Below, one piece after another: positions 46,331-64,000 of a stretch of 64,000 bases of DNA. The DNA lies in assembly GCF_032925565.1 (NCBI RefSeq), contig NZ_CP136708.1:1612001-1676000 (forward strand), in the 5' to 3' direction. Each line of letters begins with the position of its first letter. Position 1 is the stretch's first letter. The DNA is from Alteromonas sp. CI.11.F.A3. Its GTDB lineage: Bacteria > Pseudomonadota > Gammaproteobacteria > Enterobacterales > Alteromonadaceae. The position numbers were made by a program, and so were the translations under genes. A model generated the notes under the pieces. That model saw only the letters and a program-made list of their open reading frames with translations. It had not been told where the DNA came from and did no database searches.

Positions 46331-49300
46331 CTTTCTTTGATGCGAGCACATAATGCTGGCGCCACTGCGAATCAAGTACATAACCTTTAGCTTGCGCGTA
46401 ATGAATAAAGCTAGCAATCCAAACATTATTTACCTGATTAGTAGAGACATCGATGTAACTGTGCTGAAGATACAAAAACTCAAAAATTCTGGTCAGCTGT
46501 GGGCTTGGTTCTCCTAACCCTTCTTTTTGTGCATTTCGTGCAGCACGGGCCAGTTGATTTATTACTACCCGTTTTTTCACCTTTGAGTCGGATTGCATCA
46601 AATAATTAAGTGTCATGGGGTTGTCTTCCAAGATAGCACTAAAACCACTTCTAAGGTGCTTCATGTCTGGCTCAAAGCGTTGCTTACAATACTCTGTTAA
46701 AGAAGTGCGAATACGACACTCCTTTGATATAGCTGACTGAAATGCTAGGGAGTACTGGTTTAAATCTTGGTTTTCGAAAAAGGACTTTAAGCTTTGCAAA
46801 GTTAAGTAAGGAATAAACCAAGATTGCTCAGGATAATGCTCTAGTAGTAACTGTGAGTAATCTTCAGACAGGGGCAGACCGAGTTGGTCCATTTTTAAAA
46901 TAATGCGTTCAATATCCTTTTCTGAGCGCAACCGATTAAGTTGACTTATCGCTCGCAATTTATCCTGCTCTGTTGCTGCTGAAACAATATCGATAGTATG
47001 GGCGATGGAAAAATGACTAAACAAAGTCGAATTAAGGTAGGTGCTGACCCAGGAAGTTTTAGTTGGGTTTGATTCCGTCGTCGTTGTGGGCCCAAAAACG
47101 TTTTGTAAAACAAGTCTGTCAGGATGAAGCCTGAATACCAATTCATCATTTTCAGTCCGCTCAAGAATAGATTTTATCCTGCCAGGTTTTACGTCAAGTT
47201 TGGTTAACGTCACAACGCATTCGGCTTTGAGTACTGGTTCGTAAACGTTGGAACAGATCTGCGTTAATGGGGCTAGTGCTTTTCGGTACTTCAAAAATCC
47301 AATTGTTCTAATGACGGATGAGGTTAGGGCGTTCGGTGCGTGTTGATTCTGTTGGTTCTGGCGAAGAAATACCATGAGCGAAGCGCCTATTGTTGGGTCT
47401 TCGCTCGCGCTCAAAGCGTGAAGCGCACAAATTGTCTCAGATTCAGAGGGCGTTCTCAGTGCGCGGTGCAACAACTGAGACTTCAGTACTGGCTTATTTA
47501 ATGGAGCCACCTCTTCTTCCCAGAACCAGTAATTAAGGTTATCTGTTAGTTGGCAAAATTGCGGTTCTGGCAGTGAACGAATCAAATAATCCAAGTGTTC
47601 GACAAACAGATCACTTTCGGTTTTGCTGATTAACTCAATAAGCATGGCATAAAGTTCACCACGCTGCTGCGATGGCGGAAATCGCTGCATCTGGTTAAAT
47701 AACCAACTGATTAGTGTGATGACTTCCTGACTTCTCGCCTGCGAAGTTTTCACTGTTACAAATTTATCATGGTTTAATTGTCTGGCAAATGTCAGCAGTG
47801 AGCTAAGCGAGGGCTCAATTGTTTGCGATAGAGCGGGAATAAGTTCATTCACCGGTAAATCTATATACGCAAACAAATTGTAATGGCCGGCCTCAATTGA
47901 GTCAGTATGCATTCTTGTTTTTTTCGAGATAATGTCGATCTTACCTTGTGCCAAACTCAACTGATAAATGTTATTTAGTGATAAGTTTTCAAAAATATTT
48001 TTGTTATCAGGTCCTGTCACTTTAAGCGATACGTTAGAATCAAATTGACCTAGGCCGAAATGCACCCTGCGTTGGCTTGAAGACAGAAAGGGCTGAGGCT
48101 TCACTAATGTCTCGGTTGCTAACTGCGTGTTTGACTCAGTGTTTAAAGTAAATTCTACTAGATTGCAGAGGTTTATTGGCTGACAGTTGAAAGATATCCA
48201 GTTATTGTTGGTATGAGTGCGATTCATATACAGTGATAGCACACCATTATTGTTGTTTACGGCGTAATCAAGTTTCCCATCGTTGTCAAAATCAGCAGAC
48301 GCGATCCCTCTGGAGGAACGTTTTAGTGTGGGAAACTGGGAAAATAAAGTTGTCTCAAATCGTCCATTGGCTATCTGAAGTCTTCCGGAATTGACATTTC
48401 CTACAGGCACATAAGGGGTTTCAATATGGGGTTCAGCGTTGCCCTTTGCTATGATGAAGTCTTCACGGCCATCATTATTTAAATCTTCAACAATAGCCCC
48501 CCAAGATTGCACTGAAGCGTCCTTATCGGATGTTGCGAATAATTCCCAAGCTCTGTCCTTGTTTACTTGTTCACCTACCAGATGCAATTGAGTGCTTCCC
48601 CCTCCAAAGGGGATGAACAACAATGCAGTTTTATCTGCAACTTTTATAGAACTGAGTTGAACGTTGGGGGACTTCTTAAAACTCAATAGTTTGGTAAAGA
48701 GGTTACTTGACTGGTTATCGCCAAAATCCATAAAGTCTGAATTTGAACCTGAGCCGTTTGCAATATAGTAGCCGCCTGAAGCGGACCTATTTCCGGCAAC
48801 AATTTGTTTGGGTATGATACTTAAAGTTCGGTCATAACTTGATAGTTGCAGAGTTTCGAATAGAGGAGTGGATGTGTTGGCTTGGGAACCGCTATTCAGC
48901 AGAATTGCGTTTCTTAATCCATTGTAGTTTTCAGCATTAAATTGGGAATCGGTTTCATAACCGTATTCCTGATTCCCTATTTTTATGTCGTTCTCATAAT
49001 CTAGAAAGTTGGCGACGAGAATATCCTGCTTGCCATCTAGATTGTGATCCCAAATAGTAATAGACAGCGGCCAGTAAGGTTTTGGGATTTCACCTATTGT
49101 GGACTGACTAAAAGTTTTGCCATTTTTGTTAGTGAGCAAGATTAATTCGTTAGTTTTACCATAAACGAGGTCTGGATATCCATCGTCATTCAAATCGCCA
49201 ACAGCACAGCCATATCCACCAGGTAACTGCGCTTCTCCTGCTAAGGTGGTGACATCTGTAAAATACTGTCCGGCGATATTCTGATAAAGCTTGGAACCTG

Positions 49301-49655
49301 TCGGGTTGTTCCACCAATGTTTTTTTCCATATCGACGAGTAACGCCTTCGCCACCCACAACAAATACATCCTCATACCCATCTTGATTGAAATCTATGAC
49401 ACATACACCTGAACCCATTGCATCTTTGATACCGGATAGCTTTTCAGTGCGCTGAATATGTTTGAACATGATGCCCTTTATAAAGGCTGATTCTACAAAT
49501 TGAACAGGCGTTTGCTCAGTTTGAAAACTGATAGGATTTACTGACTTGGAGGTTGTCGAAAAAGTAAAATCAGAAATAAGATTTAGTGATAAACAGATAA
49601 CACTTATCAATCCAAAGGTAGTTAGTACTTTGATATTAAGAAGAGCTTTTTTCAC
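46308..49655 (-). CDS. Exported FG-GAP/ASPIC-UnbV and HEAT-like repeat protein
   Basis: An 1115-residue protein with an N-terminal signal or anchor helix (TTFGLISVICLSLNLI). Residues 80-480 carry FG-GAP/VCBS propeller repeats, with Ca2+ loops DFNQDGYEDVF, DLNDDGYPDLV, DHNLDGKQDIL, DLNNDGREDFI and DFDNDGKLDYA. An ASPIC/UnbV-like domain follows (RRVHFGLGQFDSNVSLKVTG, near residue 533). The C-terminal half is helical, with HEAT-like repeats (for example SVIRTIGFLKYRKALAPLTQ). It is expected at the cell surface or in the periplasm; no catalytic site is visible. It is convergent with the pentahaem cytochrome, sharing 23 bp. Confidence 0.82.
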   Translation of the reverse strand: MKKALLNIKVLTTFGLISVICLSLNLISDFTFSTTSKSVNPISFQTEQTPVQFVESAFIKGIMFKHIQRTEKLSGIKDAMGSGVCVIDFNQDGYEDVFVVGGEGVTRRYGKKHWWNNPTGSKLYQNIAGQYFTDVTTLAGEAQLPGGYGCAVGDLNDDGYPDLVYGKTNELILLTNKNGKTFSQSTIGEIPKPYWPLSITIWDHNLDGKQDILVANFLDYENDIKIGNQEYGYETDSQFNAENYNGLRNAILLNSGSQANTSTPLFETLQLSSYDRTLSIIPKQIVAGNRSASGGYYIANGSGSNSDFMDFGDNQSSNLFTKLLSFKKSPNVQLSSIKVADKTALLFIPFGGGSTQLHLVGEQVNKDRAWELFATSDKDASVQSWGAIVEDLNNDGREDFIIAKGNAEPHIETPYVPVGNVNSGRLQIANGRFETTLFSQFPTLKRSSRGIASADFDNDGKLDYAVNNNNGVLSLYMNRTHTNNNWISFNCQPINLCNLVEFTLNTESNTQLATETLVKPQPFLSSSQRRVHFGLGQFDSNVSLKVTGPDNKNIFENLSLNNIYQLSLAQGKIDIISKKTRMHTDSIEAGHYNLFAYIDLPVNELIPALSQTIEPSLSSLLTFARQLNHDKFVTVKTSQARSQEVITLISWLFNQMQRFPPSQQRGELYAMLIELISKTESDLFVEHLDYLIRSLPEPQFCQLTDNLNYWFWEEEVAPLNKPVLKSQLLHRALRTPSESETICALHALSASEDPTIGASLMVFLRQNQQNQHAPNALTSSVIRTIGFLKYRKALAPLTQICSNVYEPVLKAECVVTLTKLDVKPGRIKSILERTENDELVFRLHPDRLVLQNVFGPTTTTESNPTKTSWVSTYLNSTLFSHFSIAHTIDIVSAATEQDKLRAISQLNRLRSEKDIERIILKMDQLGLPLSEDYSQLLLEHYPEQSWFIPYLTLQSLKSFFENQDLNQYSLAFQSAISKECRIRTSLTEYCKQRFEPDMKHLRSGFSAILEDNPMTLNYLMQSDSKVKKRVVINQLARAARNAQKEGLGEPSPQLTRIFEFLYLQHSYIDVSTNQVNNVWIASFIHYAQAKGYVLDSQWRQHYVLASKKATDSLVP

Positions 49656-49714
49656 AACAGTCCTTGTTTTTCAATAAACTGTAACACTACGGGGAAGATG
49701 CCTTTAACGAAAGT

Positions 49715-49757
49715 CTATTCTGTTCACAGAATAGCAACAAGAAAAAGAATATTCTTT
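49715..49757. promoter_or_regulatory. Two dyads in the divergent promoter region
   Basis: CTATTCTG-TTCA-CAGAATAG (49715-49734) is a perfect 8-bp inverted repeat. AAAGAATATTCTTT (49744-49757) is a perfect 14-bp palindrome just beside it. Neither has a T tract. They lie 59-102 bp upstream of the FG-GAP gene and 180-222 bp before the PEP-CTERM gene, so they could be operators for either. Confidence 0.45.
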
Positions 49758-49936
49758 ACTTGAAAAAGTGACAAGTGTAATATTTACTCGCTGGTGTGAA
49801 AAATATACAACTTGTAGTGCTTTATTCATATTTCGATGATTTGCACTTGGTCTTAAGGTTGATGAAATACGACCCCGTGGGTTCAGGCAGGGCGTAATTT
49901 GTACGGAAAAAATAATAACAGAATGGATGCGGTTTT

Positions 49937-50593
49937 ATGAAAAGCAGTAAAGTAACTAAAGCCTGTATTGTGCTTTTATGTCTTGTGCAATCTCTCTTTT
50001 TTAGTGCGGCAGCACTAGCGACCCTAATTAATAATGGTGATTTCTCATCAGGATTGAATGACTGGAGCGACGCGAGTTTCACTGGTTCAGTGACAGAGAA
50101 TGGCGGTCAAGCTATTTTATCATCAGGTGATAATACTGACCCGTTTGCAGCCGTCCTAATACAAGGTGATGATGGAAGCTTCCTTTTTGATTCTCCCATC
50201 ATGGTTGATCCTAATGTGTCAATGTTAAGTGTCGACACGGCGCTACTAAGTATGCTTTTTGATCCAACAGAGCAAGGCGGCTCAGCTTTTAGTGACACGC
50301 TTTTTTTGGCAATTTATGATGCGGCTGACTACACCCTTGATGCTACGTTTGAAATTCCTGCACTTGGGAATGTAGCTGAAACCTTCTTATTTGATATGAG
50401 TGATTGGTTAGGCCGAGGAATTGCCATCTCATTTGAACTTGCCGATGAAGATGATGGTTTTAATCTTTCCTACTCAGTAGACAATGTCCTCTTTACTTAC
50501 AACAACACACCGGTGCCTGTGCCGGAACCAGCGTCCTTCATTATGTTACTCGTTGGTCTCACGCTGTTAGCACGTTGTCGCAAGTCTGCGTAA
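49937..50593 (+). CDS. Second PEP-CTERM sorting-domain protein
   Basis: A 218-residue exported protein. It has a signal peptide (residues 1-30, ending SAAALATL), a beta-rich middle beginning INNGDFSSGLNDWSDASFTG (like carbohydrate-binding or choice-of-anchor domains), and the C-terminal signal VPVPEPASFIMLLVGLTLLA followed by RCRKSA. Here the canonical VPEP is present. It lies about 39 kb from the exosortase-associated genes. No sigma-54 site like that of the other PEP-CTERM gene was found. A large Ig-like protein gene starts 91 bp downstream and may be cotranscribed. Confidence 0.85.
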   Translation: MKSSKVTKACIVLLCLVQSLFFSAAALATLINNGDFSSGLNDWSDASFTGSVTENGGQAILSSGDNTDPFAAVLIQGDDGSFLFDSPIMVDPNVSMLSVDTALLSMLFDPTEQGGSAFSDTLFLAIYDAADYTLDATFEIPALGNVAETFLFDMSDWLGRGIAISFELADEDDGFNLSYSVDNVLFTYNNTPVPVPEPASFIMLLVGLTLLARCRKSA

Positions 50594-50642
50594 ACAAAAA
50601 TCAAAAATTATAGGGGCTAATCAGGTCCTTTTTAGGGAAGAC

Positions 50643-50666
50643 GCTCGTTCTTTTAAAAGATCGAGC
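50643..50666 (+). repeat. 24-bp inverted repeat in the leader of the 1155-residue protein gene
   Basis: GCTCG-T-TCTTTT/AAAAGA-T-CGAGC is symmetrical over 24 bp except for one T-T pair. It lies just before the ribosome-binding AGGGAG and the TTG start at 50685. It could be an operator or an RNA hairpin that limits translation. Confidence 0.5.
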
Positions 50667-50684
50667 TATCAGGGAGATAAAAGT

Positions 50685-53600
50685 TTGAACACGGTTAAGT
50701 CACTACTTTTCATATTCGTTTGTTCGGTTGCTGCTTTACTCGTGAACGTAGGTAAGGCAAATGCGCAAACAAATTCAGATGGTTGGGTAAAAGATACAAA
50801 TATAGAAGTAAGCTGGAATAATCCAACACGTAGTAGGCGCTCACCCGATGCTACCGTTACGGCACAAATCACAAACAATGGTGATGAACCGATAAACGGC
50901 CCGGTCCGCTTTGTTATCGAATCGCTTACGCCAGCTACTATAACGGTTGGCAATGCTGACGGCGAGTTAGGCGAACTGGACTATGTTGTAGCACTTCCTC
51001 AAAACCAGATACTAGAACCCGGTCAAAGTCTGACGGTTGGTCCCATCACTATTGTTGGTGGGCGCAACAGTTTCGATATCAGTGGCTCTGCCTATGTTCA
51101 GGTATCATTAGAGCCTGTGGCACTGGAAGTGGATATCCTTTCACCCACCACGTTATCCACCTTTGGAAGTTCGCCAGTAACTGTTACGGGTACTATTAAT
51201 CAGGAAAATGCGGAATTAACATTAAATGGTGCAGTAATTGCGCATGATGGCAAACAATTTAGTGCCAATGTTGAACTAGGCGAAGGATTTAACACCGTCG
51301 TAGCACGAGCGACCAATGCAAGTGGTGAGCAAACAACCGATTCTATTTCTGTATCACTGGACTTAACCCCTCCTTACATAACAATCGAATCTCATACAGA
51401 AGCACAAGAAGTCTACAGTGACAAAATAACTGTAACAGGCCTGGTTAATGATATTGTGCGCGGGACCGTCTCTGAAGAACAGGCAACGGTTGAAGTTAAT
51501 GGCATTAAAGCGACCGTGAGTAACCGTAGCTATGCCGCAACGGACGTGTCCTTAAACGAGGGCGAAAATGTTATTACGGTTACCGCTATTGATGAATCTG
51601 GCAACAGCGCATCTATTTCCCAAAAAGTTATCTACAAAATTGCAACAGATAAACGCTTAGTATTGGTAAGTGGCCAAAACCAAACTGCACAAATCGGCAA
51701 TAAACTACCTGAACAACTAATTGTAAAATTGCTTGATGGCTCTGATGCGCCAATCGCAGATGCAATTGTTGTTTTCAGGGTAACGCAAGGTGCTGGAATT
51801 GTTGGCAGCACGCCAGAAACATCTGGCCGAGCAATCATTGCGACGACTGACGCTGAAGGTATGGCGCGCACTGAATTTCAGGTGGGCTACCGCACAGGTG
51901 TCGCTAACCATAAGGTTCGCGCTAAAGTCGTGGGGGTTGAAAACGAGGTTATCTTTCCTGCGTCAGCAACCAGTGTAACGGGCGACAAAATCAGCGTTAA
52001 CTCAGGTAATAATCAGCGTGGTGTTGCAGGACAAACCTTACCAGCTCCATTTGTTGTTGCAGTAACAGATAGTGGTGCCAATGTAGTGCAAGGAGCACGT
52101 GTACGCTTTGATGTGATTAAAGGCGACGGTGTTTTCCAAAATGAAGAAAGTAGCTATGAAACCTCGACCGACAGCGACGGACGAGCCTCGGCGCAACTCG
52201 TTTTAGGTCCACTTACGGGCATAGATGCCCAGCGTGTTGAAGCTGTATTGATTGACTCGCCTGAGGGTATTGATTTATTGGCAGGTTTCTCTGCGACGGC
52301 ATTTGTACCAGCAGACGCCGGAATCACTAGCGTAAGTGGTGTTGTACTGGACAATCAAGACAAACCTTTGCCCGGGGTGACGGTGCGTATAGAAGGCACA
52401 GACAGGACCGCATTTACAGATCAACAAGGTCAGTTTACTGTTAGTCAAGCGCCAGTAGGACCGGTTCATTTAATCGTGGATGGCTCAACCACGACTGCTT
52501 TTGGTGAGTACCCGACGTTAAGCTATCATATTGTAACCGTGTCAGGTGTGGACAACCCACTTTCTGGCCCGATCTACATGGTCAAACTAGACACAGATAA
52601 CGGTGTGTATGCGGGTAAAGAAGACGTAGTACTTACTCTTGATAACTTCCCAGGATTTAAACTGGAAATCGCAAAAGATTCAGTGACATTCCCAGACGGT
52701 TCGCGTGAAGGGATTGTTTCAGTCACACCTGTAAACGCTTCAAAAGTACCAATGGCGCCGCCCAATGGTATGCAACCTCAATTCATCGTAACAATCCAGC
52801 CAGTTGGCGCGACCTTCTCTCCTGCTGCGAAATTAACGCTACCTAATGTAGATGGCCATGCGCCAGGTGCACAGGTTGAAATGTATTCTTTTGATCACGA
52901 CCTAGAAGAGTTCGTGGCAATAGGTTTAGGTACAGTTTCGGAAGATGGTTCAGTTGTTTCATCCAATCCTGGTGTTGGTGTCGTGAAAGCAGGCTGGCAC
53001 TGTGGTTCACAGCCGGGCGGTTCAGGTACAGCCCACAACTGTCCAGAGTGTCAGAAGTGTCAAGGCAGTTCATGTGTAAGAGATCCGGGACAGGATAGTA
53101 AACCTCGTTCTCAGCAGACACCAGAAGATTGTAAAACAAAATTGTGTAAGGGCTCTAAAGCAAATCCGGGCGACATTCCGGTAAGTGCAGATGTGAAATA
53201 CGATTGTAAAAAGCCAGGATGCGATGGGGAAAATCCAATTTTTGATGTTCCAGACGATGGAGATATATCTGAAGACGACAAAAAGTGCGGGATGTGCTCT
53301 GGCGGAGAAAAAGTGCCAGATGAAAGTAAGAATAAACAGGAATGTGGTGACGGCTCCGATGCTAAAGAGTGTTACACCTGTAAAGATGGAAGTTGTGGAA
53401 ACCATTGCGAAGCAAGTAATGCAAAAACAACAAAGTCCATTGAGGTAAAAGGCGATCACCCTTTGTTAAAAAAACTTGATGTTTTAAGCAATGGGATGCC
53501 GTACGCAAAGCTTGAAGTCAAAGGTTCATTTGCATTAAACGAAGAAAGTGGTGAAAAGTGCTGCAAAGATTGCTCAATTGGCAAAGACCCGAAACCATAC

Positions 53601-54152
53601 ACTAAAACTGAATTAAAGGGCTCAGGTTCACTGGAAGGGACCTTTATTGTTCCGGGACTAGGTCTATTGTACCAGCTGCCAATCAAAACCTATGGCCCAG
53701 TTAAACTAGGTGGTGAGGTTGAGTTTGGGCCTGGTGTGAAAGGTAATTTAGGTGTTTCTGCATCTGGTTCAACAGAAGTATCAGAGTGTGACCCAGAAAC
53801 GTGCGGTTTATTGACGATAGGAGTCTCAGGGTCGCTAACTTTAGGTGTTTTTGCAAAGGTCAAGGGCGATGTCAAATACTGTAATGTTTTTAATGAAAAA
53901 GACTGTGACAAATTAATTGAAGGTGAAGCTGAAGCTTCATCAACAATTAATGCTGGTGTTTCTTTCGATTACAAAGATTATGAAGGTGACAATTGCACCA
54001 GCTCTGATTGTTATAGCTATAGCTATGGCAAAGCGGAATTTAAAGCAAATGCTCAGTATAAAGTTGAAGTAGGTGGGTTGTATAAATATCAATATCAAAA
54101 CGAAGTTTCAGTAACGTTTGGTGAGGCTGGTTCAGGAGGTACGTGTGGGTAA
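50685..54152 (+). CDS. Large exported Ig-like / carboxypeptidase-regulatory / Cys-rich protein
   Basis: An 1155-residue protein starting at TTG 50685, eight bases after AGGGAG. There is a signal peptide (residues 1-28, ending GKANAQ). Domains in order: an uncharacterised beta domain to about 145; two Ig-like domains to about 315; two invasin-like Big_1 domains (about 320-530, each beginning with a SGNNQ- or SGQNQ-type motif); a carboxypeptidase-regulatory-like domain (GVVLDNQDKPLPGVTVRIEG, about 545-630); a ZU5-like region; then GVGVVKAGWHCGSQPGG near residue 770. That N-terminal order is common in large RHS/YD-repeat proteins, but no RHS repeats follow. Instead there is a Cys-rich stretch (about 785-910) with many CxxC pairs and a Gly-rich beta region with further Cys. 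The surface location is likely; the function is unknown. Confidence 0.8.
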   Translation: MNTVKSLLFIFVCSVAALLVNVGKANAQTNSDGWVKDTNIEVSWNNPTRSRRSPDATVTAQITNNGDEPINGPVRFVIESLTPATITVGNADGELGELDYVVALPQNQILEPGQSLTVGPITIVGGRNSFDISGSAYVQVSLEPVALEVDILSPTTLSTFGSSPVTVTGTINQENAELTLNGAVIAHDGKQFSANVELGEGFNTVVARATNASGEQTTDSISVSLDLTPPYITIESHTEAQEVYSDKITVTGLVNDIVRGTVSEEQATVEVNGIKATVSNRSYAATDVSLNEGENVITVTAIDESGNSASISQKVIYKIATDKRLVLVSGQNQTAQIGNKLPEQLIVKLLDGSDAPIADAIVVFRVTQGAGIVGSTPETSGRAIIATTDAEGMARTEFQVGYRTGVANHKVRAKVVGVENEVIFPASATSVTGDKISVNSGNNQRGVAGQTLPAPFVVAVTDSGANVVQGARVRFDVIKGDGVFQNEESSYETSTDSDGRASAQLVLGPLTGIDAQRVEAVLIDSPEGIDLLAGFSATAFVPADAGITSVSGVVLDNQDKPLPGVTVRIEGTDRTAFTDQQGQFTVSQAPVGPVHLIVDGSTTTAFGEYPTLSYHIVTVSGVDNPLSGPIYMVKLDTDNGVYAGKEDVVLTLDNFPGFKLEIAKDSVTFPDGSREGIVSVTPVNASKVPMAPPNGMQPQFIVTIQPVGATFSPAAKLTLPNVDGHAPGAQVEMYSFDHDLEEFVAIGLGTVSEDGSVVSSNPGVGVVKAGWHCGSQPGGSGTAHNCPECQKCQGSSCVRDPGQDSKPRSQQTPEDCKTKLCKGSKANPGDIPVSADVKYDCKKPGCDGENPIFDVPDDGDISEDDKKCGMCSGGEKVPDESKNKQECGDGSDAKECYTCKDGSCGNHCEASNAKTTKSIEVKGDHPLLKKLDVLSNGMPYAKLEVKGSFALNEESGEKCCKDCSIGKDPKPYTKTELKGSGSLEGTFIVPGLGLLYQLPIKTYGPVKLGGEVEFGPGVKGNLGVSASGSTEVSECDPETCGLLTIGVSGSLTLGVFAKVKGDVKYCNVFNEKDCDKLIEGEAEASSTINAGVSFDYKDYEGDNCTSSDCYSYSYGKAEFKANAQYKVEVGGLYKYQYQNEVSVTFGEAGSGGTCG

Positions 54153-55308
54153 CACGAGAATTTTTAAAACTTTATTTTTTTATATTTTTTTAAGCTCATA
54201 TTCAATTGATGCATTAGCTGAGCAAAAGAGAACCTCATTTATTTTGGCTGAATCACCCAGTGGTGAGGTTTCAGTTGCTGGTAGCATTGTTATAGATAAT
54301 TTGTTTCATAAAACTCAACTGTCGTTGAATGAGAGCGATACTAAAAACAGTATTCAAACCTTATCTAGGTATTACACACTTGCGAAGGAAAACGACAAGG
54401 CGAAGTTGCGAAAGTTGTCGTACGTCAAAGATGGTACCTATTCTTGGATGAGTAGAGAACTGAATAGTATTCCTGATAAATTCGAGGGCTTTGCTAAGTT
54501 GCGAAAAGCTGATGCCACTCACAAATTGTTCTGGGGTGATTACGAACTTTTTATTGTTGATTGGTTCACCGAAGCTCCTCAGAAAGTTATGAGCTGGTAC
54601 GAGGCGGTTATATGTGCAGAAAATAGCCAATGCCATATCAGCAATTTATTGCTTAATGGGAAAACTTCGAGCTCTATCTTCTCCGGTGTGCTTACAGACG
54701 TTTACGTTAAGCCACTAAAAAAAGTGCCAACCTTGCCATACTCTGTAAGCTATCTACCTAAACCATTTAGTGGTTCTAATCAAAATGCGCTCGTTTTTAA
54801 TTTTGAAGTTGAGTGGTTAAACAAGCCATTGGAATTTAAGGTGGATGAGAAAAGTAAACTTCAAGATAAGAATGTTCAGTTCGTACATTTAGAGTCATTT
54901 CTGAGAGAACTTTGGTCTGTGCGCGGGAATACAGTAAAAAGAATAGTTAAAGAAAAGGCATATAAAACGTCTTTAGATGCGCATTGGCTCGACTTTTCTA
55001 CGAGAAATCTTATTCCTGTGATAAATCCTGGTTCGGGGTTTAGTCTAAGTAACTACACGCCTGTTGCTTATTTGGACAGGTTGTCCAAAATTGATGAAGT
55101 GAAAGTTGAGGGTGTACTTCATGCTACAAATGAAATGTACGTCGTCATGACAGCTTCGTTACTAAATCAACAGCAGTTAGTTATTATTACTTTGGACCGA
55201 AAAACAAAAAAACTAAAACAGACACCAAACAACTTTAAACTTCAAGAGATTGTTAATACTCCAGAGTTCTATAGAAAAATGGCTTCTATTGTCAATAAGA
55301 GAGCTTAA
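54145..55308 (+). CDS. Exported protein of unknown function
   Basis: About 387 residues from GTG 54145, chosen because AGGAGG ends five bases before it; the frame extends 27 bp further upstream, inside the previous gene. The start lies 8 bp before the stop of the upstream gene, so translation is probably coupled. The N-terminus (TRIFKTLFFYIFLSSYSIDALA) is a signal peptide. The rest is mixed alpha/beta, Lys- and Ser-rich, with no motif I recognise. The DNA is more AT-rich than that of the upstream gene. A partner role for the Ig-like/Cys-rich protein is likely from the overlap. Confidence 0.7.
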   Translation: MGNTRIFKTLFFYIFLSSYSIDALAEQKRTSFILAESPSGEVSVAGSIVIDNLFHKTQLSLNESDTKNSIQTLSRYYTLAKENDKAKLRKLSYVKDGTYSWMSRELNSIPDKFEGFAKLRKADATHKLFWGDYELFIVDWFTEAPQKVMSWYEAVICAENSQCHISNLLLNGKTSSSIFSGVLTDVYVKPLKKVPTLPYSVSYLPKPFSGSNQNALVFNFEVEWLNKPLEFKVDEKSKLQDKNVQFVHLESFLRELWSVRGNTVKRIVKEKAYKTSLDAHWLDFSTRNLIPVINPGSGFSLSNYTPVAYLDRLSKIDEVKVEGVLHATNEMYVVMTASLLNQQQLVIITLDRKTKKLKQTPNNFKLQEIVNTPEFYRKMASIVNKRA

Positions 55309-55310
55309 AT

Positions 55311-55877
55311 TTGAAAGCGAGCGACGAGATTGATGTTACAGGATACCTAGTTGCTTCTAGTTATTGCAACGCTAAATTGAACATAAATAAAGATGTAGTC
55401 GCTATCACTCCTAACCTCAGAAGTTATTTATTTGAATGTGGATTGCATTTTTTTTGTTGGGCATGTTGCATATTTATGTCGATTAAAGTTTGGCAGTTGG
55501 AACCAAACCTTGATTCGAAAACCAAATTCGTTATTGGTGTGCTTACACTGGGTGGGCTCTTTAGTTTAGGCACAGCCTTTATATGCAGAAGAAGCAGAAG
55601 AAAATTCTATTTTGACCTAAACGAAAGAGTGCTGAATGTCGGCAGTTCGAATGACCCGAAGACTAAAGTTGCTTTTGATTCGTTTGAAAAGCTTCTGTTT
55701 GTTACGACACAAATATATGGTACTGAGTCATCATTCACTTGTTTTGAACTAAGCGTTCTAACCAACAACCGAAAAAGAGTTGTTTTGATGTATCACAGTG
55801 ATTATCACAAAATCCAAAATGATTTAGATGTACTCGCTGAAATACTGGGATTAGAAGTGGAAAGTCTAGAGGCTTGA
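55311..55877 (+). CDS. Small two-TM protein of unknown function
   Basis: A 188-residue protein starting at TTG 55311, 2 bp after the previous stop. It has two membrane segments (HFFCWACCIFMSIKVW near residue 47 and FVIGVLTLGGLFSLGTAFIC near residue 73) followed by a basic RRSRRKF and a cytoplasmic domain of about 90 residues. The layout is like membrane proteins with a PH-like C-terminal domain, but I do not recognise the family. It is probably cotranscribed with the two genes upstream. Confidence 0.65.
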   Translation: MKASDEIDVTGYLVASSYCNAKLNINKDVVAITPNLRSYLFECGLHFFCWACCIFMSIKVWQLEPNLDSKTKFVIGVLTLGGLFSLGTAFICRRSRRKFYFDLNERVLNVGSSNDPKTKVAFDSFEKLLFVTTQIYGTESSFTCFELSVLTNNRKRVVLMYHSDYHKIQNDLDVLAEILGLEVESLEA

Positions 55878-55993: not shown

Positions 55994-58900
55994 ATGAGAA
56001 AGGGACAATTAAACTTACTTTTACTCACTGGCTTATGTTTTTCGGCATTTTTTCACAAGACTAATGCAACAGAACTTGATGAAAATTGTGTCATAAATAT
56101 TTTAAATCGTACCATTCAAGTAAGTGAAGATGGCGGCTGGGCGTTACCAAACGTTCCTTCTAATATGGGGCAGATCAGAGCCAGAGCGACCTGTAAATTG
56201 GAGGATGGCCGAACTGTCTCTGGTCAAAGTGATTACTTTAATGTGGTACGTAACGGCATCACAAAAGTTGGTGATATCAAATTTGAAACATTGGATCCTA
56301 TCCCCGTATCATTGAGTTTCTCGACGACCGATACGCTTCTTCTAAACAATCCAGAACAAACCTTTCCTTTAACCGTCACTGGCTTTTTTGCCGATAGCAG
56401 TGTAGATGACTTAACCGCAGGGGAAAAAGGAACAAACTACTCGAGTACAAATGAGAATATAGCTACTGTTAGCCCAGACGGTTTGGTTACAGCTAAAGCC
56501 AACGGTGTTGCACTCATCAGTGCTAGGAAAGATGGTGTCCTAGCTAGCCGTCGAGTAGAAGTCAAAATCGGTGGCGATCTCGATTCGGACGGAATTCCAG
56601 ATGACGCAGAGCGTGCGCTTGGACTTAACCCAAATGACCCAATTGATGCGTTAGAAGATCACGACAACGATGGGTTATCGGCGCTCGAAGAGTATCAGGC
56701 GGGTACCAACATTTTTGAAGCCGACACAGATGGTGATGGTCTTACTGATTTAGAAGAACTTACTGGTGGAACGAATGGTTATGTTACTAATCCGCTTCTA
56801 GCTGACTCCGATGGTGATGGTATTTCTGATGGACTGGAAATAGCCGGTGGTTCGGATCCGAATGATTCAGCAAGCGGTGATTTGGCAGACTATCTTGATT
56901 TCATAACGGTATCCCCAGAGAACTTATTCCTAACTTATAATGCCATTGATGGTGAAGCTAGCGGCAAGCTTTCTGTCACAGGCTACATGCTTGACGGTAC
57001 TTCTGTAGATTTAACCCAGCAATCTAGTGGCACACGCTATACTACCGACGATATAACCATTGCTAACTTTGGCTTATCAGACGGCGAAATTTTTGCTGGT
57101 CAATCAGGCGAAACGAAAATAACGGTGACCAACCGTGATGAAAGTTTCGTTGTTAATGTGACCGTGACTCAGTTCGATCCAGTTGTGCAATCTACGGTGT
57201 CTATTCCGGGCTACGCAAATAATGTGGATATTCAAGGTAACTTAGCTTATATAGCGGCTGGCGATTCTGGGCTGCAAGTGATTAGCGTCGTAGATACCTT
57301 AAATCCTGAAATCATTGGAAGTGTAGATACACAGGGTATTAGCATCGATGTTAAAGCAGTTGGGTCATATGCTTATTTGGCTGACGGTTCTGAGGGTATG
57401 CAAATAGTAGATATATCTGAACCTGAAAACCCGAAAATTGTATCAAAACTTGACACTGCAGGTATTGCTCAAGACTTATCGGTAAAAGGGGACTTCGTTT
57501 TTGTTGCAGATGGCTCTGCAGGTATCGAAATATTCAATGTTGCGAATCCTAACAAACCTTTTGCAGTTGGTTCTACCGAACACCTTACCGATGTAAAAGG
57601 TATTGCTGTAGAAAACAACTTTATGGTCGCCGTGGGTGGTACAACGTTATCCTTGTTTGATATTGAAGACCCATCAGCACCATTACACCTTTCTTCGGTT
57701 AATATCGGCACAGTTAAAGACGTCGAAATCAGCAATGAGTATGTTTATGTGGCAGCATACAGCACTGGCTATCGTATCTATAAGATTACGGATGCTGGAA
57801 TGTTGGAGCTAAAAGGCGGAGACAGGACCTTCGTTCCACGCGATGTTGCGGTGACAAATGGCTTTACCTTTTTTGCTGAGCAATTATTCCCAAATGTAGT
57901 TGCTTATGTGAATACTAAAAATCCTGACGAACCTTTCTTTCAGGATACGATCAACCTTTCTCCTTTAGGTGATTACGCAGGTACCGGTATTGCGCTTAAC
58001 GCAACCCATGCTTTTATTACAGAAGAAAGATATGTTGTGGGCTCAGACTACAAAGCGACGGGCGATACGAAACTGTTTATCGCGCAATATAGAGAGCTAA
58101 ACGATGCGAATGGAATACCTCCAACAGTCTCGCTAGTTGAGCCTGCATCAGACGGCGTTACAGTTGAAGGTGCCAGACTAACGTTAACTGCAGATGCACA
58201 GGATGATATTGCCGTTGGCAAAGTCGATTTCTATGTCAATAATCTGCTCGTAGCGCAGGATACAACCTATCCATACTCAGTTCCTTTCACCGTACCTCAG
58301 GATGTAGGAAATATTGCGGTTAAAGCAGTGGCTACAGATCTAGGCGCTAATAGTACAACAACAGTTACCGTTACGCTTGAAGTGCAAAATGATGAAGACG
58401 GTGACGGTCTCGGTGATGAAGAAGAAGCTAATACGTGGATGACGGATGCCAATAACCCTGACACCGATGGGGATGATCTGTCAGACGGGGAAGAAGTAGC
58501 GCGTGGTATTAACCCTAACAATCAGGATTCCGATGGCGATGGCAGAAAAGATGGCGATGAGATAGCAGCAGGTACCGATCCAGCAAACCCTGATATTGTT
58601 GCGCCTACTATAATTACAACTGAGCCAACTGCTGACCAAACTGAGGTGGCGGAAAATAGTGCTATTATTGTTACTTTTTCAGAGGCTCTATCACGTAAGT
58701 CTGTCAATGCTAATTCTATTCGTGTGTATGGAGACGGTGGAGTACCAGTTTCGGGGAACGTTAAGTTAATTGGCGGTGATACGCAGGTATTGTTTACGCC
58801 TAATGCACTAATGGCAGATTACACAGTGCATGAAGTTGTTACCGGTATTGTAAAAGACACTGCCGGTAACTCATTGGCAGAAGAACACCAGTTTACTTTC

Positions 58901-61900
58901 GAAACCGGAAATACTGTTGATACAGTTAGACCGACTGTTAGCAATATTAACCCAATTCACAACGCAAAAGATGTGCCCGTGAATATTGCATTAACTGTGG
59001 TGATGAGTGAACGTATCGACCCGGAAAGTGTAACCAATGATAGCTTCTACATCGAAGATAACTCGACAAGAGAACTTATTGAAGGGTTAATAGATGTTAA
59101 GGACGATAGCACAACTATCACTTTTACTCCTAATGCGGCGTTTCTTGTGGGAAGGCAGCACAGAATATATTTGGGAAGTGGAATTAAAGACCTCTTTGGT
59201 AATTCCATGTCTAATCGTAATTACTATTTTACTACAGCGTTCGATGCTGATGGTGTTGCTCCACTAATCAATAGTACCAGTGTTATTGAAGGAGAAACAT
59301 CTGTACCTGTTAATGCCAGGTTCAATATAAGGTTTGATGAAGCAGTAAACAGCTATTCAACTAAGAACATACGACTCTTTAAGGAGGATGTGGTTGTTGC
59401 AGTGGACCTTACTAATAGCAGTGATCTGCGTACAGCAACCTTAAAGCCTAAGTTAAATTTGGAGCCTGAGACAGTCTATACCCTAGTTGTAGACGGTATT
59501 TCTGACCTTAGTGGTAATCTGCTTGAATCTGCGCAATCAACCTCTTTTACGACAGGCACTCAAACTGATACACAAACAGGGTCATTGATAAGTTACAGCC
59601 CGAAAAGTGGTGCAACGGACGTGGCATTGAATGCGACGATTACGGCAGACTTCAGTGAGCGTATTGACCCGACATCACTGACCAGTGAGTCATTCAGGTT
59701 GTATAACAATACGGAAAAACGTAATGAGGCTGCGACATTGAGCCTAAGTGCAGACGGTAAGCGTGTGACGTTAACCCCGGATGCATTGTTAGAAGAAGGG
59801 CATCATTATTACGTGTATATCAGTTGGGGTAGCTACCTGAAGGATATCGCAGGTAATAACGTGGGCAGTTATCATCAGTATACGTTTACAGCAGGTGACA
59901 GTGAAGATGCGCAGGCGCCGAGTGTTATAGCAAACAACCTGTCGCAAGGGTTAACGGATGTACCAGTGAATGCCCCTGTGAGACTGTTTCTGGATGAGGC
60001 GTTAGCGGCACATTGTGTGAATGAAAAGACGGTATCGCTCCAAAGCAGTACAGGTGCAGTATCGGGCAGTGTAGCACTGAGCAGTGATCGCAGAACGATT
60101 ACGTTCACGCCGGATGAATATCTGATGGCGGGTGAAGCTTATGAGCTGATTGTTGCGGGAGTGTGTGATGTAGCGGGTAATGAAGTTGTTGAGTATCGCA
60201 TGGACTTCACAGCCGACAGTAGCGGCAGTGTTGATACTGCCTACCCAAGAATAAGCAGTGTTACACCGACAAACAATACAGCAGATGTATCAGTTAACAC
60301 AGCGATTGTGGTGACCTTTAACGAAGCAGTCGATGCACTAAACATTAATGAAGCAGTGCGAGTTCAGGTGAATGGCCAAAGTGGCTATGTAGCGGGTGAC
60401 TATCAGGTAGAAGGCAGCGTGGTGACGTTTACGCCAAGTGAGCCATTACCGGGTAGTACACAAATCAGAACAAGCATTTACTACGTCAAAGATAGAGTTG
60501 GAAATAGTGCATGTTGTTGGAATTATTACTTCACAACAGAAGACGAGCTTGATACTACGGCACCAATCGTAAGCAGTATAAGTCCGGCAGACGGAGCCAT
60601 GGATATAGGAGTAGGTACGCCAATCGTACTAAGCTTCAATGAATCGTTAAATGCAGCTACGGTTAACAGTAATCACTTCAAGTTGTATTCAGAGGGCAGC
60701 ATTATTACGCCGAGCGTTTACCGCTCTGCAGACAGTAAAACAATCACGTTGCGTGGCACCTGGCCAGCCGGGAAGTCACTGTCAGTAATCGTCACGGACG
60801 ATGTGCAGGACTTAAGCGGTAATGCAATGGCGGATTATGTCAGCCTATTTAGCACAGCAGTGGTAGATAATGACAATGGTAGGCCAAGTGTCTCACGCCT
60901 ATACCCGAACAGTGGTGCCAATAATGTACCGAGTGTCGGCAGTATAGTGATGTACACCTCAGAGCCAATGGATGAAAGTTCCTTACATGAGGCCTTCCAT
61001 GTAGCGGAAAACGGTGTACTGGTAGAGGGACAGATTACGCTGTCAGCATCAGGTCAGGCAATCGAATTCACACCAGATGAAGCCTTTGTAGAAGGAGCAC
61101 TCGTTCATGTTTATCTGGATAGCACAGCACGTGATGATTCAGGTAATGCGATGAACCATTATCAAGGTCAGTTCCGCATGGCGACAACTACGGCAACAGC
61201 AGGGGTGCGACCAACGCCTAATGCTTATCTGCCAAGTAATGGTTTAACCAATGTGTCGCTAAATCCGACCATGCGTATCGTTTATAACCAAGATATGGAT
61301 GAGACTACCATTACCGATGAATTCATTGTGATGCGAAACAATGATGGCAGTGCCTTCCCTGCGACGATAAGTCTGGCAGATGACTTACGTACAGTGGAAA
61401 TCACGCCGCAATCACTCTTATCGGCCGACAGTTACTATTATGTGAGCCTATCAAGTAACATTCTGGATACAGATGGTGACCGTCAGTATTGGAGTCGCAG
61501 TTATGGCTTCACCACAGGTGAAGCAGCGCTAGAAGACTTACAGGCCCCACGAGTAACTGCGATGAGTCCGGCAACGGGAATGGAAAATGTGGCATTGAAT
61601 CCGCGTTATCACGTGCGCTTTGATGAAGCGATTAACCCATACAGCTTCGAACGCATAGCAGATATGAGTATCTCGTACAGTGCAAGTAATACCGAAGTGT
61701 TGTACCACCGTTACTCACCATTACCAGAGAGTACGGAACACACAGAAACAATTACACAGGTAGAAGACTTGTCGGGCAATAAAGTTGTTTCACACAGTGA
61801 AACCTTTACAACCGGAACAGGGCCAGACCTGACAAGCCCGAATTACAGTACTTATCTACCTTACGCGAACAGTACAGTTGCAGTAAATAGTAGTGTGATC

Positions 61901-64000
61901 TGGGTAATGAACGAGGTTGTTGACCCACTCACGGTGAACAGCAGCACCGTATATGTACGAGATGTAGACAATGGTTGGACCCATGTCGCGGGTAGTGCCA
62001 GTATTGGTCAGGATGGTAAGACAATCACTTGGGTGTCAGACAATGTACTGACAGCGGGTAGACGGTTTAATGCCAGAATCGACGGTGTAGCGGATATCAG
62101 TGGTAATACAAACTCATCAGATAGCTTCTACTTCTATACCAGTTTGGAAGAAGATACAGCAGCACCAGTTGTAACTGGCACGTCAGTGCACGAAGGCTTA
62201 ACCGATGTGGCGGTAAATGCCCGAGTGAGAGTGAAGTTTAGTGAAACGATAAGTCATTTATCACTGGGTGACATTACCCTGACTCATAACGGTGAGCAGA
62301 TTGCGGTAAATCGTGCACTAGACAGCTCACATACGCTGGTCACGCTCACTCCTGTGACCCTGCTTCCGGCGGGCGAGACGCTAAGCTTGAATGTAAGCGG
62401 TGTGAAAGACCTGGCAGATAACGTGCAGGTAGAAGACATCAATATCCACTTCACAACAGAGCTGGGTATCGATACGCAAACAGGGTCATTGATAAGTTAC
62501 AGCCCGAAAAGTGGTGCAACGGACGTGGCATTGAATGCGACGATTACGGCAGACTTCAGTGAGCGTATTGACCCGACATCACTGACCAGTGAGTCATTCA
62601 GGTTGTATAACAATACGGAAAAACGTAATGAGGCTGCGACATTGAGCCTAAGTGCAGACGGTAAGCGTGTGACGTTAACCCCGGATGCATTGTTAGAAGA
62701 AGGGCATCATTATTACGTGTATATCAGTTGGGGTAGCTACCTGAAGGATATCGCAGGTAATAACGTGGGCAGTTATCATCAGTATACGTTTACAGCAGGT
62801 GACAGTGAAGATGCGCAGGAGCCGAGTGTTATAGCAAACAACCTGTCGCAAGGGTTAACGGATGTACCAGTGAATGCCCCTGTGAGACTGTTTCTGGATG
62901 AGACGTTAGCGGCACATTGTGTGAATGAAGAGACGGTATCGCTCCAAAGCAGTTCAGGTGCAGTATCGGGCAGTGTAGCACTGAGCAGTGATCGCAGAAC
63001 GATTACGTTCACGCCGGATGAATATCTGGTGGCGGGTGAAGCTTATGAGCTGATTGTTGCGGGAGTGTGTGATGTAGCGGGTAATGAAGTTGTTGAGTAT
63101 CGCATGGACTTCACAGCCGACAGTAGCGGCAGTGTTGATACTGCCTACCCAAGAATAAGCAGTGTTACACCGACAAACAATACAGCAGATGTATCAGTTA
63201 ACACAGCGATTGTGGTGACCTTTAACGAAGCAGTCGATGCACTAAACATTAATGAAGCAGTGCGAGTTCAGGTGAATGGCCAAAGTGGCTATGTAGCGGG
63301 TGACTATCAGGTAGAAGGCAGCGTGGTGACGTTTACGCCAAGTGAGCCATTACCGGGTAGTACACAAATCAGAACAAGCATTTACTACGTCAAAGATAGA
63401 GTTGGAAATAGTGCATGTTGTTGGAATTATTACTTCACAACAGAAGACGAGCTTGATACTACGGCACCAATCGTAAGCAGTATAAGTCCGGCAGACGGAG
63501 CCATGGATATAGGAGTAGGTACGCCAATCGTACTAAGCTTCAATGAATCGTTAAATGCAGCTACGGTTAACAGTAATCACTTCAAGTTGTATTCAGAGGG
63601 CAGCATTATTACGCCGAGCGTTTACCGCTCTGCAGACAGTAAAACAATCACGTTGCGTGGCACCTGGCCAGCCGGGAAGTCACTGTCAGTAATCGTCACG
63701 GACGATGTGCAGGACTTAAGCGGTAATGCAATGGCGGATTATGTCAGCCTATTTAGCACAGCAGTGGTAGATAATGACAATGGTAGGCCAAGTGTCTCAC
63801 GCCTATACCCGAACAGTGGTGCCAATAATGTACCGAGTGTCGGCAGTATAGTGATGTACACCTCAGAGCCAATGGATGAAAGTTCCTTACATGAGGCCTT
63901 CCATGTAGCGGAAAACGGTGTACTGGTAGAGGGACAGATTACGCTGTCAGCATCAGGTCAGGCAATCGAATTCACACCAGATGAAGCCTTTGTAGAAGGA
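55994..64000 (+). CDS. Giant multidomain surface protein, N-terminal 2669 codons (runs off right edge)
   Basis: An open frame from ATG 55994 (AGGGA upstream) to the window end with no stop. There is a signal peptide (residues 1-25, ending HKTNAT). Domains in order: Big_2-like Ig (about 108-194); thrombospondin-3-like Ca2+ repeats (about 195-296, for example DTDGDGLTDLEE and DSDGDGISDGLE); a second Big_2-like domain; a LVIVD-type propeller (about 396-702, with repeats such as GNLAYIAAGDSGLQVISV); an Ig domain (about 709-794); a second Ca2+-repeat block (about 799-865); then tandem SbsA-like Big_5 domains of about 107 residues from 868 onward. From residue 1192 the domains belong to a 968-residue unit that begins again at residue 2160. 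An adhesin or matrix protein is likely; the C-terminus is not seen. Confidence 0.88.
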   Translation, partial: MRKGQLNLLLLTGLCFSAFFHKTNATELDENCVINILNRTIQVSEDGGWALPNVPSNMGQIRARATCKLEDGRTVSGQSDYFNVVRNGITKVGDIKFETLDPIPVSLSFSTTDTLLLNNPEQTFPLTVTGFFADSSVDDLTAGEKGTNYSSTNENIATVSPDGLVTAKANGVALISARKDGVLASRRVEVKIGGDLDSDGIPDDAERALGLNPNDPIDALEDHDNDGLSALEEYQAGTNIFEADTDGDGLTDLEELTGGTNGYVTNPLLADSDGDGISDGLEIAGGSDPNDSASGDLADYLDFITVSPENLFLTYNAIDGEASGKLSVTGYMLDGTSVDLTQQSSGTRYTTDDITIANFGLSDGEIFAGQSGETKITVTNRDESFVVNVTVTQFDPVVQSTVSIPGYANNVDIQGNLAYIAAGDSGLQVISVVDTLNPEIIGSVDTQGISIDVKAVGSYAYLADGSEGMQIVDISEPENPKIVSKLDTAGIAQDLSVKGDFVFVADGSAGIEIFNVANPNKPFAVGSTEHLTDVKGIAVENNFMVAVGGTTLSLFDIEDPSAPLHLSSVNIGTVKDVEISNEYVYVAAYSTGYRIYKITDAGMLELKGGDRTFVPRDVAVTNGFTFFAEQLFPNVVAYVNTKNPDEPFFQDTINLSPLGDYAGTGIALNATHAFITEERYVVGSDYKATGDTKLFIAQYRELNDANGIPPTVSLVEPASDGVTVEGARLTLTADAQDDIAVGKVDFYVNNLLVAQDTTYPYSVPFTVPQDVGNIAVKAVATDLGANSTTTVTVTLEVQNDEDGDGLGDEEEANTWMTDANNPDTDGDDLSDGEEVARGINPNNQDSDGDGRKDGDEIAAGTDPANPDIVAPTIITTEPTADQTEVAENSAIIVTFSEALSRKSVNANSIRVYGDGGVPVSGNVKLIGGDTQVLFTPNALMADYTVHEVVTGIVKDTAGNSLAEEHQFTFETGNTVDTVRPTVSNINPIHNAKDVPVNIALTVVMSERIDPESVTNDSFYIEDNSTRELIEGLIDVKDDSTTITFTPNAAFLVGRQHRIYLGSGIKDLFGNSMSNRNYYFTTAFDADGVAPLINSTSVIEGETSVPVNARFNIRFDEAVNSYSTKNIRLFKEDVVVAVDLTNSSDLRTATLKPKLNLEPETVYTLVVDGISDLSGNLLESAQSTSFTTGTQTDTQTGSLISYSPKSGATDVALNATITADFSERIDPTSLTSESFRLYNNTEKRNEAATLSLSADGKRVTLTPDALLEEGHHYYVYISWGSYLKDIAGNNVGSYHQYTFTAGDSEDAQAPSVIANNLSQGLTDVPVNAPVRLFLDEALAAHCVNEKTVSLQSSTGAVSGSVALSSDRRTITFTPDEYLMAGEAYELIVAGVCDVAGNEVVEYRMDFTADSSGSVDTAYPRISSVTPTNNTADVSVNTAIVVTFNEAVDALNINEAVRVQVNGQSGYVAGDYQVEGSVVTFTPSEPLPGSTQIRTSIYYVKDRVGNSACCWNYYFTTEDELDTTAPIVSSISPADGAMDIGVGTPIVLSFNESLNAATVNSNHFKLYSEGSIITPSVYRSADSKTITLRGTWPAGKSLSVIVTDDVQDLSGNAMADYVSLFSTAVVDNDNGRPSVSRLYPNSGANNVPSVGSIVMYTSEPMDESSLHEAFHVAENGVLVEGQITLSASGQAIEFTPDEAFVEGALVHVYLDSTARDDSGNAMNHYQGQFRMATTTATAGVRPTPNAYLPSNGLTNVSLNPTMRIVYNQDMDETTITDEFIVMRNNDGSAFPATISLADDLRTVEITPQSLLSADSYYYVSLSSNILDTDGDRQYWSRSYGFTTGEAALEDLQAPRVTAMSPATGMENVALNPRYHVRFDEAINPYSFERIADMSISYSASNTEVLYHRYSPLPESTEHTETITQVEDLSGNKVVSHSETFTTGTGPDLTSPNYSTYLPYANSTVAVNSSVIWVMNEVVDPLTVNSSTVYVRDVDNGWTHVAGSASIGQDGKTITWVSDNVLTAGRRFNARIDGVADISGNTNSSDSFYFYTSLEEDTAAPVVTGTSVHEGLTDVAVNARVRVKFSETISHLSLGDITLTHNGEQIAVNRALDSSHTLVTLTPVTLLPAGETLSLNVSGVKDLADNVQVEDINIHFTTELGIDTQTGSLISYSPKSGATDVALNATITADFSERIDPTSLTSESFRLYNNTEKRNEAATLSLSADGKRVTLTPDALLEEGHHYYVYISWGSYLKDIAGNNVGSYHQYTFTAGDSEDAQEPSVIANNLSQGLTDVPVNAPVRLFLDETLAAHCVNEETVSLQSSSGAVSGSVALSSDRRTITFTPDEYLVAGEAYELIVAGVCDVAGNEVVEYRMDFTADSSGSVDTAYPRISSVTPTNNTADVSVNTAIVVTFNEAVDALNINEAVRVQVNGQSGYVAGDYQVEGSVVTFTPSEPLPGSTQIRTSIYYVKDRVGNSACCWNYYFTTEDELDTTAPIVSSISPADGAMDIGVGTPIVLSFNESLNAATVNSNHFKLYSEGSIITPSVYRSADSKTITLRGTWPAGKSLSVIVTDDVQDLSGNAMADYVSLFSTAVVDNDNGRPSVSRLYPNSGANNVPSVGSIVMYTSEPMDESSLHEAFHVAENGVLVEGQITLSASGQAIEFTPDEAFVEG
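59567..62470 (+). repeat. 2904-bp tandem repeat, copy 1 (complete)
   Basis: A unit of 968 codons encoding nine Big_5-like domains. It begins GATACACAAACAGGGTC and ends where copy 2 starts, so the two copies abut head to tail and keep the reading frame. Confidence 0.93.
62471..64000 (+). repeat. 2904-bp tandem repeat, copy 2 (first 1530 bp visible)
   Basis: Aligned at an offset of 2904 bp to copy 1. By eye only six substitutions separate the copies: 62476, 62820, 62903, 62930, 62954 and 63029. The remainder, including the last 970 bp before the window edge, is identical. It continues past the edge. Confidence 0.93.

Follow-up and report, generated by a model that had tools for sequence, protein, structure and literature searches.

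The window analysed here is a 64,000-nucleotide stretch (bases 1612001-1676000) of the genome of Alteromonas sp. CI.11.F.A3 (G000), which is assembled as one closed contig of 4,662,912 bp; all coordinates are window positions. Its features of interest, some of which continue past the window end, are:

43928..68258, + strand: 24.3-kb segment between a hexapeptide-transferase (cysE-like) gene and an Rrf2 (iscR-like) gene
50685..54152, + strand: Cys-rich 1155-aa protein, probably secreted (from Pfam and neighbourhood)
55994..66367, + strand: giant ORF, 3457 aa, with its stop 2.4 kb beyond the window end (64000)
58598..59566, + strand: three lead-in Big_5 domains (starts by a local HMM)
59567..62470, + strand: unit 1, 2904 bp, 968 aa, nine different Big_5 domains (phases 1-9)
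59567..60198, + strand: block R1, 632 bp, phase 1 and most of phase 2, putative recombining segment
59916..60125, + strand: 210-bp stretch with five nonsynonymous differences
62471..65374, + strand: unit 2, head to tail with unit 1, first 1530 bp inside the window (to 64000)
62471..63102, + strand: block R2, probable hybrid, left part R3-like and right part R1-like
65375..66006, + strand: block R3, the third, partial copy, 632 bp, directly after unit 2

The giant ORF encodes a signal-peptide-like start, a Big_2 domain scoring slightly below the Pfam cut-off, TSP3_bac, LVIVD and Big_7 domains, and 24 Big_5 domains that extend up to the C-terminus, the N-terminal LVIVD/Big_7/TSP3 region preceding the Big_5 array. 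The Big_5 (PF13205) assignment passes the curated Pfam threshold (24 stretches, 1024.5 bits vs. a cut-off of 23.6), and the local HMM also counts 24 domains, with starts spaced 97-112 aa apart. Judged by eye from its start, the protein is apparently Sec-secreted. In the Pfam results there was no anchor family, ligand site or SLH domain for this protein, whose C-terminal end is a Big_5 domain. AlphaFold2 modelling of eleven domains around unit 1 yielded confident beta-sandwiches (pLDDT 86) with relative placement that was not confident (pTM 0.49). A sequence search of solved structures (PDB) with the protein of the 2904-bp unit gave no match at E <= 0.01, and among the families listed by a fold search were generic Ig-like strings with low whole-chain TM-scores.

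The 24.3-kb segment is shared with G025, a genome of another Alteromonas species assembled as one closed contig, and is absent from G047, which belongs to the same species as G000, and from G058; in both of the latter the flanking genes adjoin, with 32 bp between the matching flanks. No second strain of this species carrying the gene was found among the genomes searched. At another locus of G058, a relative lacking the segment, matches were found (G058:C1:3766734-3769254), some of them broken by stops, possibly a decayed relative. A pattern scan of contigs recovered no relatives with the unit protein alone and 38 loci with an alignment of ten relatives. Relatives of the 1155-aa protein are encoded in 30 of these 38 fetched loci, many of them short, and lie upstream of the giant gene in 29; other recurring neighbours are FG-GAP (19 loci), pentaheme cytochrome (12), thioredoxin-like (8) and PEP-CTERM (7) proteins. 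The recurrent neighbourhood spans 44312-55877 in the window and is also seen in L046-L082. No NCBIfam model scored above its cut-off with the seven neighbourhood proteins scanned. Pseudomaricurvus alcaniphilus carries two neighbouring 24-domain genes of the giant-protein family (L050 and L082).

The initial annotation had reported a near-identical 2904-bp tandem duplication inside the giant gene, and direct copies do start at 59567 and 62471 in the frame opened at 55994. The unit was missed by Tandem Repeats Finder, the period limit of which was 500, and was found by a direct-repeat search at a spacing of 2904; a self-BLASTP comparison of whole proteins did not bring up any internal repeat, probably because nested matches were culled, and a window-wise comparison was used instead. 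In the sequence downstream of the window, unit 2 is complete to 65374 and is followed by the 632-bp third copy and the stop at 66367; three Big_5 domains precede the first unit and three follow the last one. The layout of the array may be written R-M-R-M-R, where R is the 632-bp block of approximately the first two domains and M is the rest of the unit; that of G025 is R-M-R. At unit position 1 the identity of the R copies rises sharply, from 38% before it to 98-100% after it, and in both genomes it breaks off near unit position 632-637.

The earlier count of six differences between the units in 1530 visible positions is exact and is also the total over all 2904 bp (2898 identical). They lie at 59572, 59916, 59999, 60026, 60050 and 60125, that is, in the first 559 bp; the other 2345 bp are identical, and none falls in the 2272 bp outside R. 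Five are nonsynonymous (A to E, A to T, K to E, T to S, M to V) and clustered within 210 bp, as had been noted, and 59572 is silent. Under uniform placement, the probability that all six fall in the first 632 of 2904 bp is 1e-4, and that five of six fall within 210 bp is 7e-4.

Such near-identity could arise if a single true unit had been drawn twice by the assembler. Draft assemblies do break in these genes: 23 of the 38 fetched loci carry two or more Big_5 domains, and in 14 of these the sequence runs out at a contig end or no more than 14 bp away from one; 13 of these 14 breaks come after 2-4 domains, around the left border of the unit. However, the G000 genome is one closed contig with distinct bases in all three R blocks; whole-unit near-identity is seen in 17 proteins, six of which besides that of G000 (P0011, P0013, P0023, P0109, P0124 and P0127) are encoded on contigs longer than 3.7 Mb; and breaks and collapse would be expected to reduce the copy number rather than raise it. 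We therefore consider an assembly artefact very improbable. In Paraglaciecola sp. MB-3u-78, two contigs (L061 and L062) both end after three Big_5 domains, which suggests two genes sharing near-identical units.

As a possible origin of the clustered changes, the initial annotation had proposed a patch recombined from a third, diverged copy outside the window. Such a copy exists (R3), and copy 2 matches it at four of the six sites (59572, 59916, 60026 and 60125); yet with about 99% identity it is not diverged, and at the two remaining sites, 59999 and 60050, copy 2 agrees with neither of the others. At 59999 (unit site 433) copy 2 carries the base of G025 and copies 1 and 3 share another one, and at 60050 its base is unlike both others. 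Copy 3 also differs from copies 1 and 2 at unit positions 499 and 623, having the G025 base at 623. By parsimony, a hybrid copy 2 with one breakpoint requires 9 steps vs. 10-11 without a breakpoint. Only four sites inform the order of exchanges; three of them fit the hybrid, and site 433 conflicts with it and requires a further exchange or conversion. Unequal crossing-over between the two R blocks of an R-M-R gene would be expected to leave just such a hybrid copy 2.

The other origin proposed earlier, diversification of one exposed domain, has in its favour that among the three copies of the 632-bp block seven of the eight differences are nonsynonymous and all seven fall in one domain. Yet these proportions are usual under neutrality: with a neutral nonsynonymous fraction of 0.77, P = 0.58 for five of six and P = 0.42 for seven of eight, and the changes, polarised with G025 as the outgroup, are spread over copies 1, 2 and 3. 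Between the two species, moreover, the same stretch (unit positions 301-600) has 11 synonymous and 8 nonsynonymous codon differences at a total divergence of 6.7%, vs. 1.0% and 1.7% in neighbouring stretches, a pattern that speaks for recombination with a diverged allele. The data do not support selection on an exposed domain, and we find it very improbable that diversifying selection made the cluster.

Among 59 genomes of the genus, G000 included, the unit as DNA matched only those of G000 and G025; as protein, it matched 5 of the 59, and 16 of 246 genomes at the family level at E <= 1e-60. In G025 the gene has a 2489-aa frame with one unit, 97% identical to that of G000, and a partial copy; the local HMM counts 15 Big_5 domains there vs. 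24 in G000, and the G000 array is longer by exactly one 968-aa unit. Since G025 has one unit and a partial copy, the G000 gene most likely gained one unit. The two R copies of G025 are identical over 593 bp, and the two genomes differ at many sites that are fixed among the copies within each genome; the R copies are clearly under concerted evolution within each genome. The earlier reading of the near-identity as very recent whole-unit expansion or continuing homogenisation by recombination is supported in both parts. The concerted evolution of R is also what would be expected if the two-unit state were old and its units were held identical by gene conversion, with no recent change in copy number, and in one clade two-unit arrays are indeed old (see below). 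For G000, however, this is unlikely, as G025 and P0002, the nearest relatives found, both have one unit, and the 2272 bp outside R contain none of the six differences. In other lineages, gene conversion of older two-unit arrays is hard to tell apart from fresh duplication.

Relatives were gathered by two protein searches, each of which scored only those candidates with most words in common (2418 and 7990): 102 came from the protein search, and the profile search gave 591 at E <= 1e-100, 120 of which were listed. After 20 proteins with fewer than 8 domains had been dropped from the 187 gathered, 167 were kept: a family of 119 sharing the N-terminal region at >300 bits, and 48 others that, having been found by array similarity, are no neutral control (41 without an N-terminal match, 7 with a weak one). 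The best self-offset was nine domains in 111 of the 119 family proteins, with eight exceptions, and in 46 of the 48 others. The most frequent domain counts in the family are 24 (47 proteins), 15 (18), 22 (13), 21 (8), 13 (7) and 14 (7). A group without a match to the N-terminal region of the giant protein (P0049-P0087) has 21 Big_5 domains in 34 of 39 proteins and the nine-domain period in 38 of 39. Four proteins (P0015, P0016, P0103 and P0104) have 28 domains, with a C-terminal part that resembles a two-domain repeat after two nine-domain units.

Nine phase-specific HMMs were built from 58 units and applied to 133 proteins outside the profile set, two of which are near copies of profile members (P0106 from Alteromonas halophila, and P0003, N-terminally identical to G025). 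Cyclic nine-phase order was found for 1590 of the 1808 domains in family proteins and for 681 of the 999 in the others. A typical phase string is x-8-9-(1 to 9)n-1-2-3; in relatives the first lead-in domain has no steady phase assignment, and it is followed by phases 8 and 9. As a control for the period, Big_5 was searched for in 150 phylum genomes, of which 39 matched, G000 included; 30 loci of at most 3.4 kb each were returned, one of them the giant gene, and four longer stretches were fetched. The control is thin, L144 (11 domains with a large gap) being its sole array long enough for the offset-nine test: there, neighbours were the most similar (49%) and domains nine apart the least (25%; two pairs). 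In L145 (7 domains) similarity was about equal at every offset.

The period may be a frozen accident of one early duplication, without structural meaning, which would be compatible with the explanation preferred below. In-register recombination alone preserves a period once two similar units exist, and 87 of the 119 domain counts fall in the series 15/24/33 or 13/22/31; the remaining 32 (e.g., 21, 28 and 14) lie outside both, some perhaps cut by contig ends. On the other hand, the nine positions remain distinct from one another when eight distant proteins are compared, identity being 35-49% for domains of the same phase and 23-37% for domains of different phases; the phase order is also seen in the 681 domains from proteins whose N-termini are different or only weakly similar, and in family members with a single unit. 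We would give a frozen accident somewhat less than an even chance.

Several observations bear on change in the arrays. A tree built from 58 units of 34 proteins shows units of the same protein grouping together at many separate points; in one clade of seven proteins (P0024-26 and P0029-32) they group by position instead, the two units being old and stable. Of 140 protein pairs whose N-terminal regions are at least 70% alike, 29 have unequal domain counts, and in 19 of these the difference is exactly nine. Such pairs include P0013/P0028 (N-terminal regions 99% identical, 24 vs. 15 domains), G000/G025 and G000/P0002 (96-97%), P0110/P0154 (92%) and, more distant, P0107/P0159 (22 vs. 13) and P0011/P0027. 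The contig with P0028 is 9.5 kb long, so that a collapsed repeat is possible there; G000 and G025 are closed. The other ten pairs comprise four with P0003, which looks truncated, P0168/P0169, P0169/P0170, P0104/P0105 and P0001/P0018, as well as P0120 and P0128 vs. P0153 (25 vs. 15 domains). Adjacent domains in the 119 proteins have a median identity of 27% and a maximum of 49%, none of 2383 pairs reaching 50%; of the pairs nine domains apart, 188 of 1431 are at least 90% identical. At least one pair nine apart at >=95% was found in 33 of the 119 proteins, in 17 of them over at least five pairs. Some pair two to eight domains apart reached at least 50% in 15 of the 119; by sequence comparison, other internal duplications evidently also occur in the family.

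The explanation that we consider very probable is that a nine-domain block was gained in G000 by recombination between R blocks, that array length is quantised in this way across the family, and that the product is a secreted rod variable in steps. From an older R-M-R state, misalignment of R copies by one unit followed by homologous recombination (unequal crossing-over) would add one M-R and leave a hybrid R in the middle, R2, with its left part from R3 and its right part from R1. The six differences would then for the most part go back to older differences between the outer R blocks that were carried into the hybrid; a few would be later changes, and beside the crossing-over there was probably one further small exchange. 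The same in-register process may act family-wide, so that array length would change mainly by nine-domain quanta (968 aa) and neighbouring domains would stay different meanwhile. The recombination reading of the array is strong. As to the role, we infer a periscope-like secreted rod, with a titin-like arrangement, the length of which would vary in super-repeat steps without identical domains being placed side by side.

Periscope proteins (SasG, Rib, Sgo_0707, CdrA) are described, in the passages of the source available to us, as repetitive rods at the cell surface, with intragenic recombination between near-identical DNA repeats as the presumed cause of changes in length; adjacent domains of large multidomain proteins usually share less than about 50% identity, a pattern broken by the highly similar tandem domains of periscope proteins (PMC8201768). 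The giant gene has near-identical tandem DNA repeats. In a periscope protein, repeat number would vary between similar strains; the variation seen here is between close species or sequences (G000/G025, P0013/P0028, P0110/P0154). Of the N-terminal ligand domain and C-terminal surface anchor that mark the class, the giant protein offers the LVIVD/Big_7/TSP3 region at one end and, with no anchor family in the Pfam results, a terminal Big_5 domain at the other. However, the highly similar adjacent domains that those passages give for the class (PMC8201768) were not found in the 119 proteins. The giant protein would thus work like a periscope protein, yet it is not filed there, as it is without the highly similar neighbours of that class.

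The A-band of titin has fixed 7- and 11-domain super-repeats of Ig and Fn3 domains, with about 43 nm per C-zone repeat, according to the sections available (PMC5648799). Several distinct Ig-like domains repeated in a fixed order are likewise found in the giant-protein family, but titin is eukaryotic and combines Ig with Fn3, and the likeness is one of layout only, with no sequence relation or ruler role claimed. The BAP of Acinetobacter is also a giant surface protein of diversified Ig-like modules, the low identity of which is suggested by its authors to limit misfolding and slippage; its modules, however, vary in composition and arrangement, and a fixed nine-module super-repeat is not described in the available parts of that paper (PMC4647330). 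From the Ig-like S-layer proteins (SbsC, Sap) the giant protein differs in that its unit has no PDB sequence match at the threshold given above and SLH is missing from its Pfam results; a shared fold by itself shows no function. Our searches of the open-licence PMC literature gave no report of a nine-domain bacterial Ig super-repeat and no study of this protein family.

More tentatively, the nine-Ig block could be a bacterial counterpart of the titin super-repeat and serve as a quantum of length, corresponding perhaps to a single turn or to the period of binding along a partner. Its order would be kept across bacterial phyla, and the block would be gained or lost whole by recombination, allowing the cell to adjust the rod stepwise without misfolding of identical neighbours; this is possible but, in our opinion, rather doubtful. 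The family appears to combine near-identical DNA, available for recombination nine domains apart, with neighbouring domains that differ, and the idea that the identity of neighbours limits length variation becomes directly testable. The giant protein of Alteromonas sp. CI.11.F.A3 would thereby belong to a widespread family of quantised length, and related proteins in many bacteria appear to grow and shrink by the same block.
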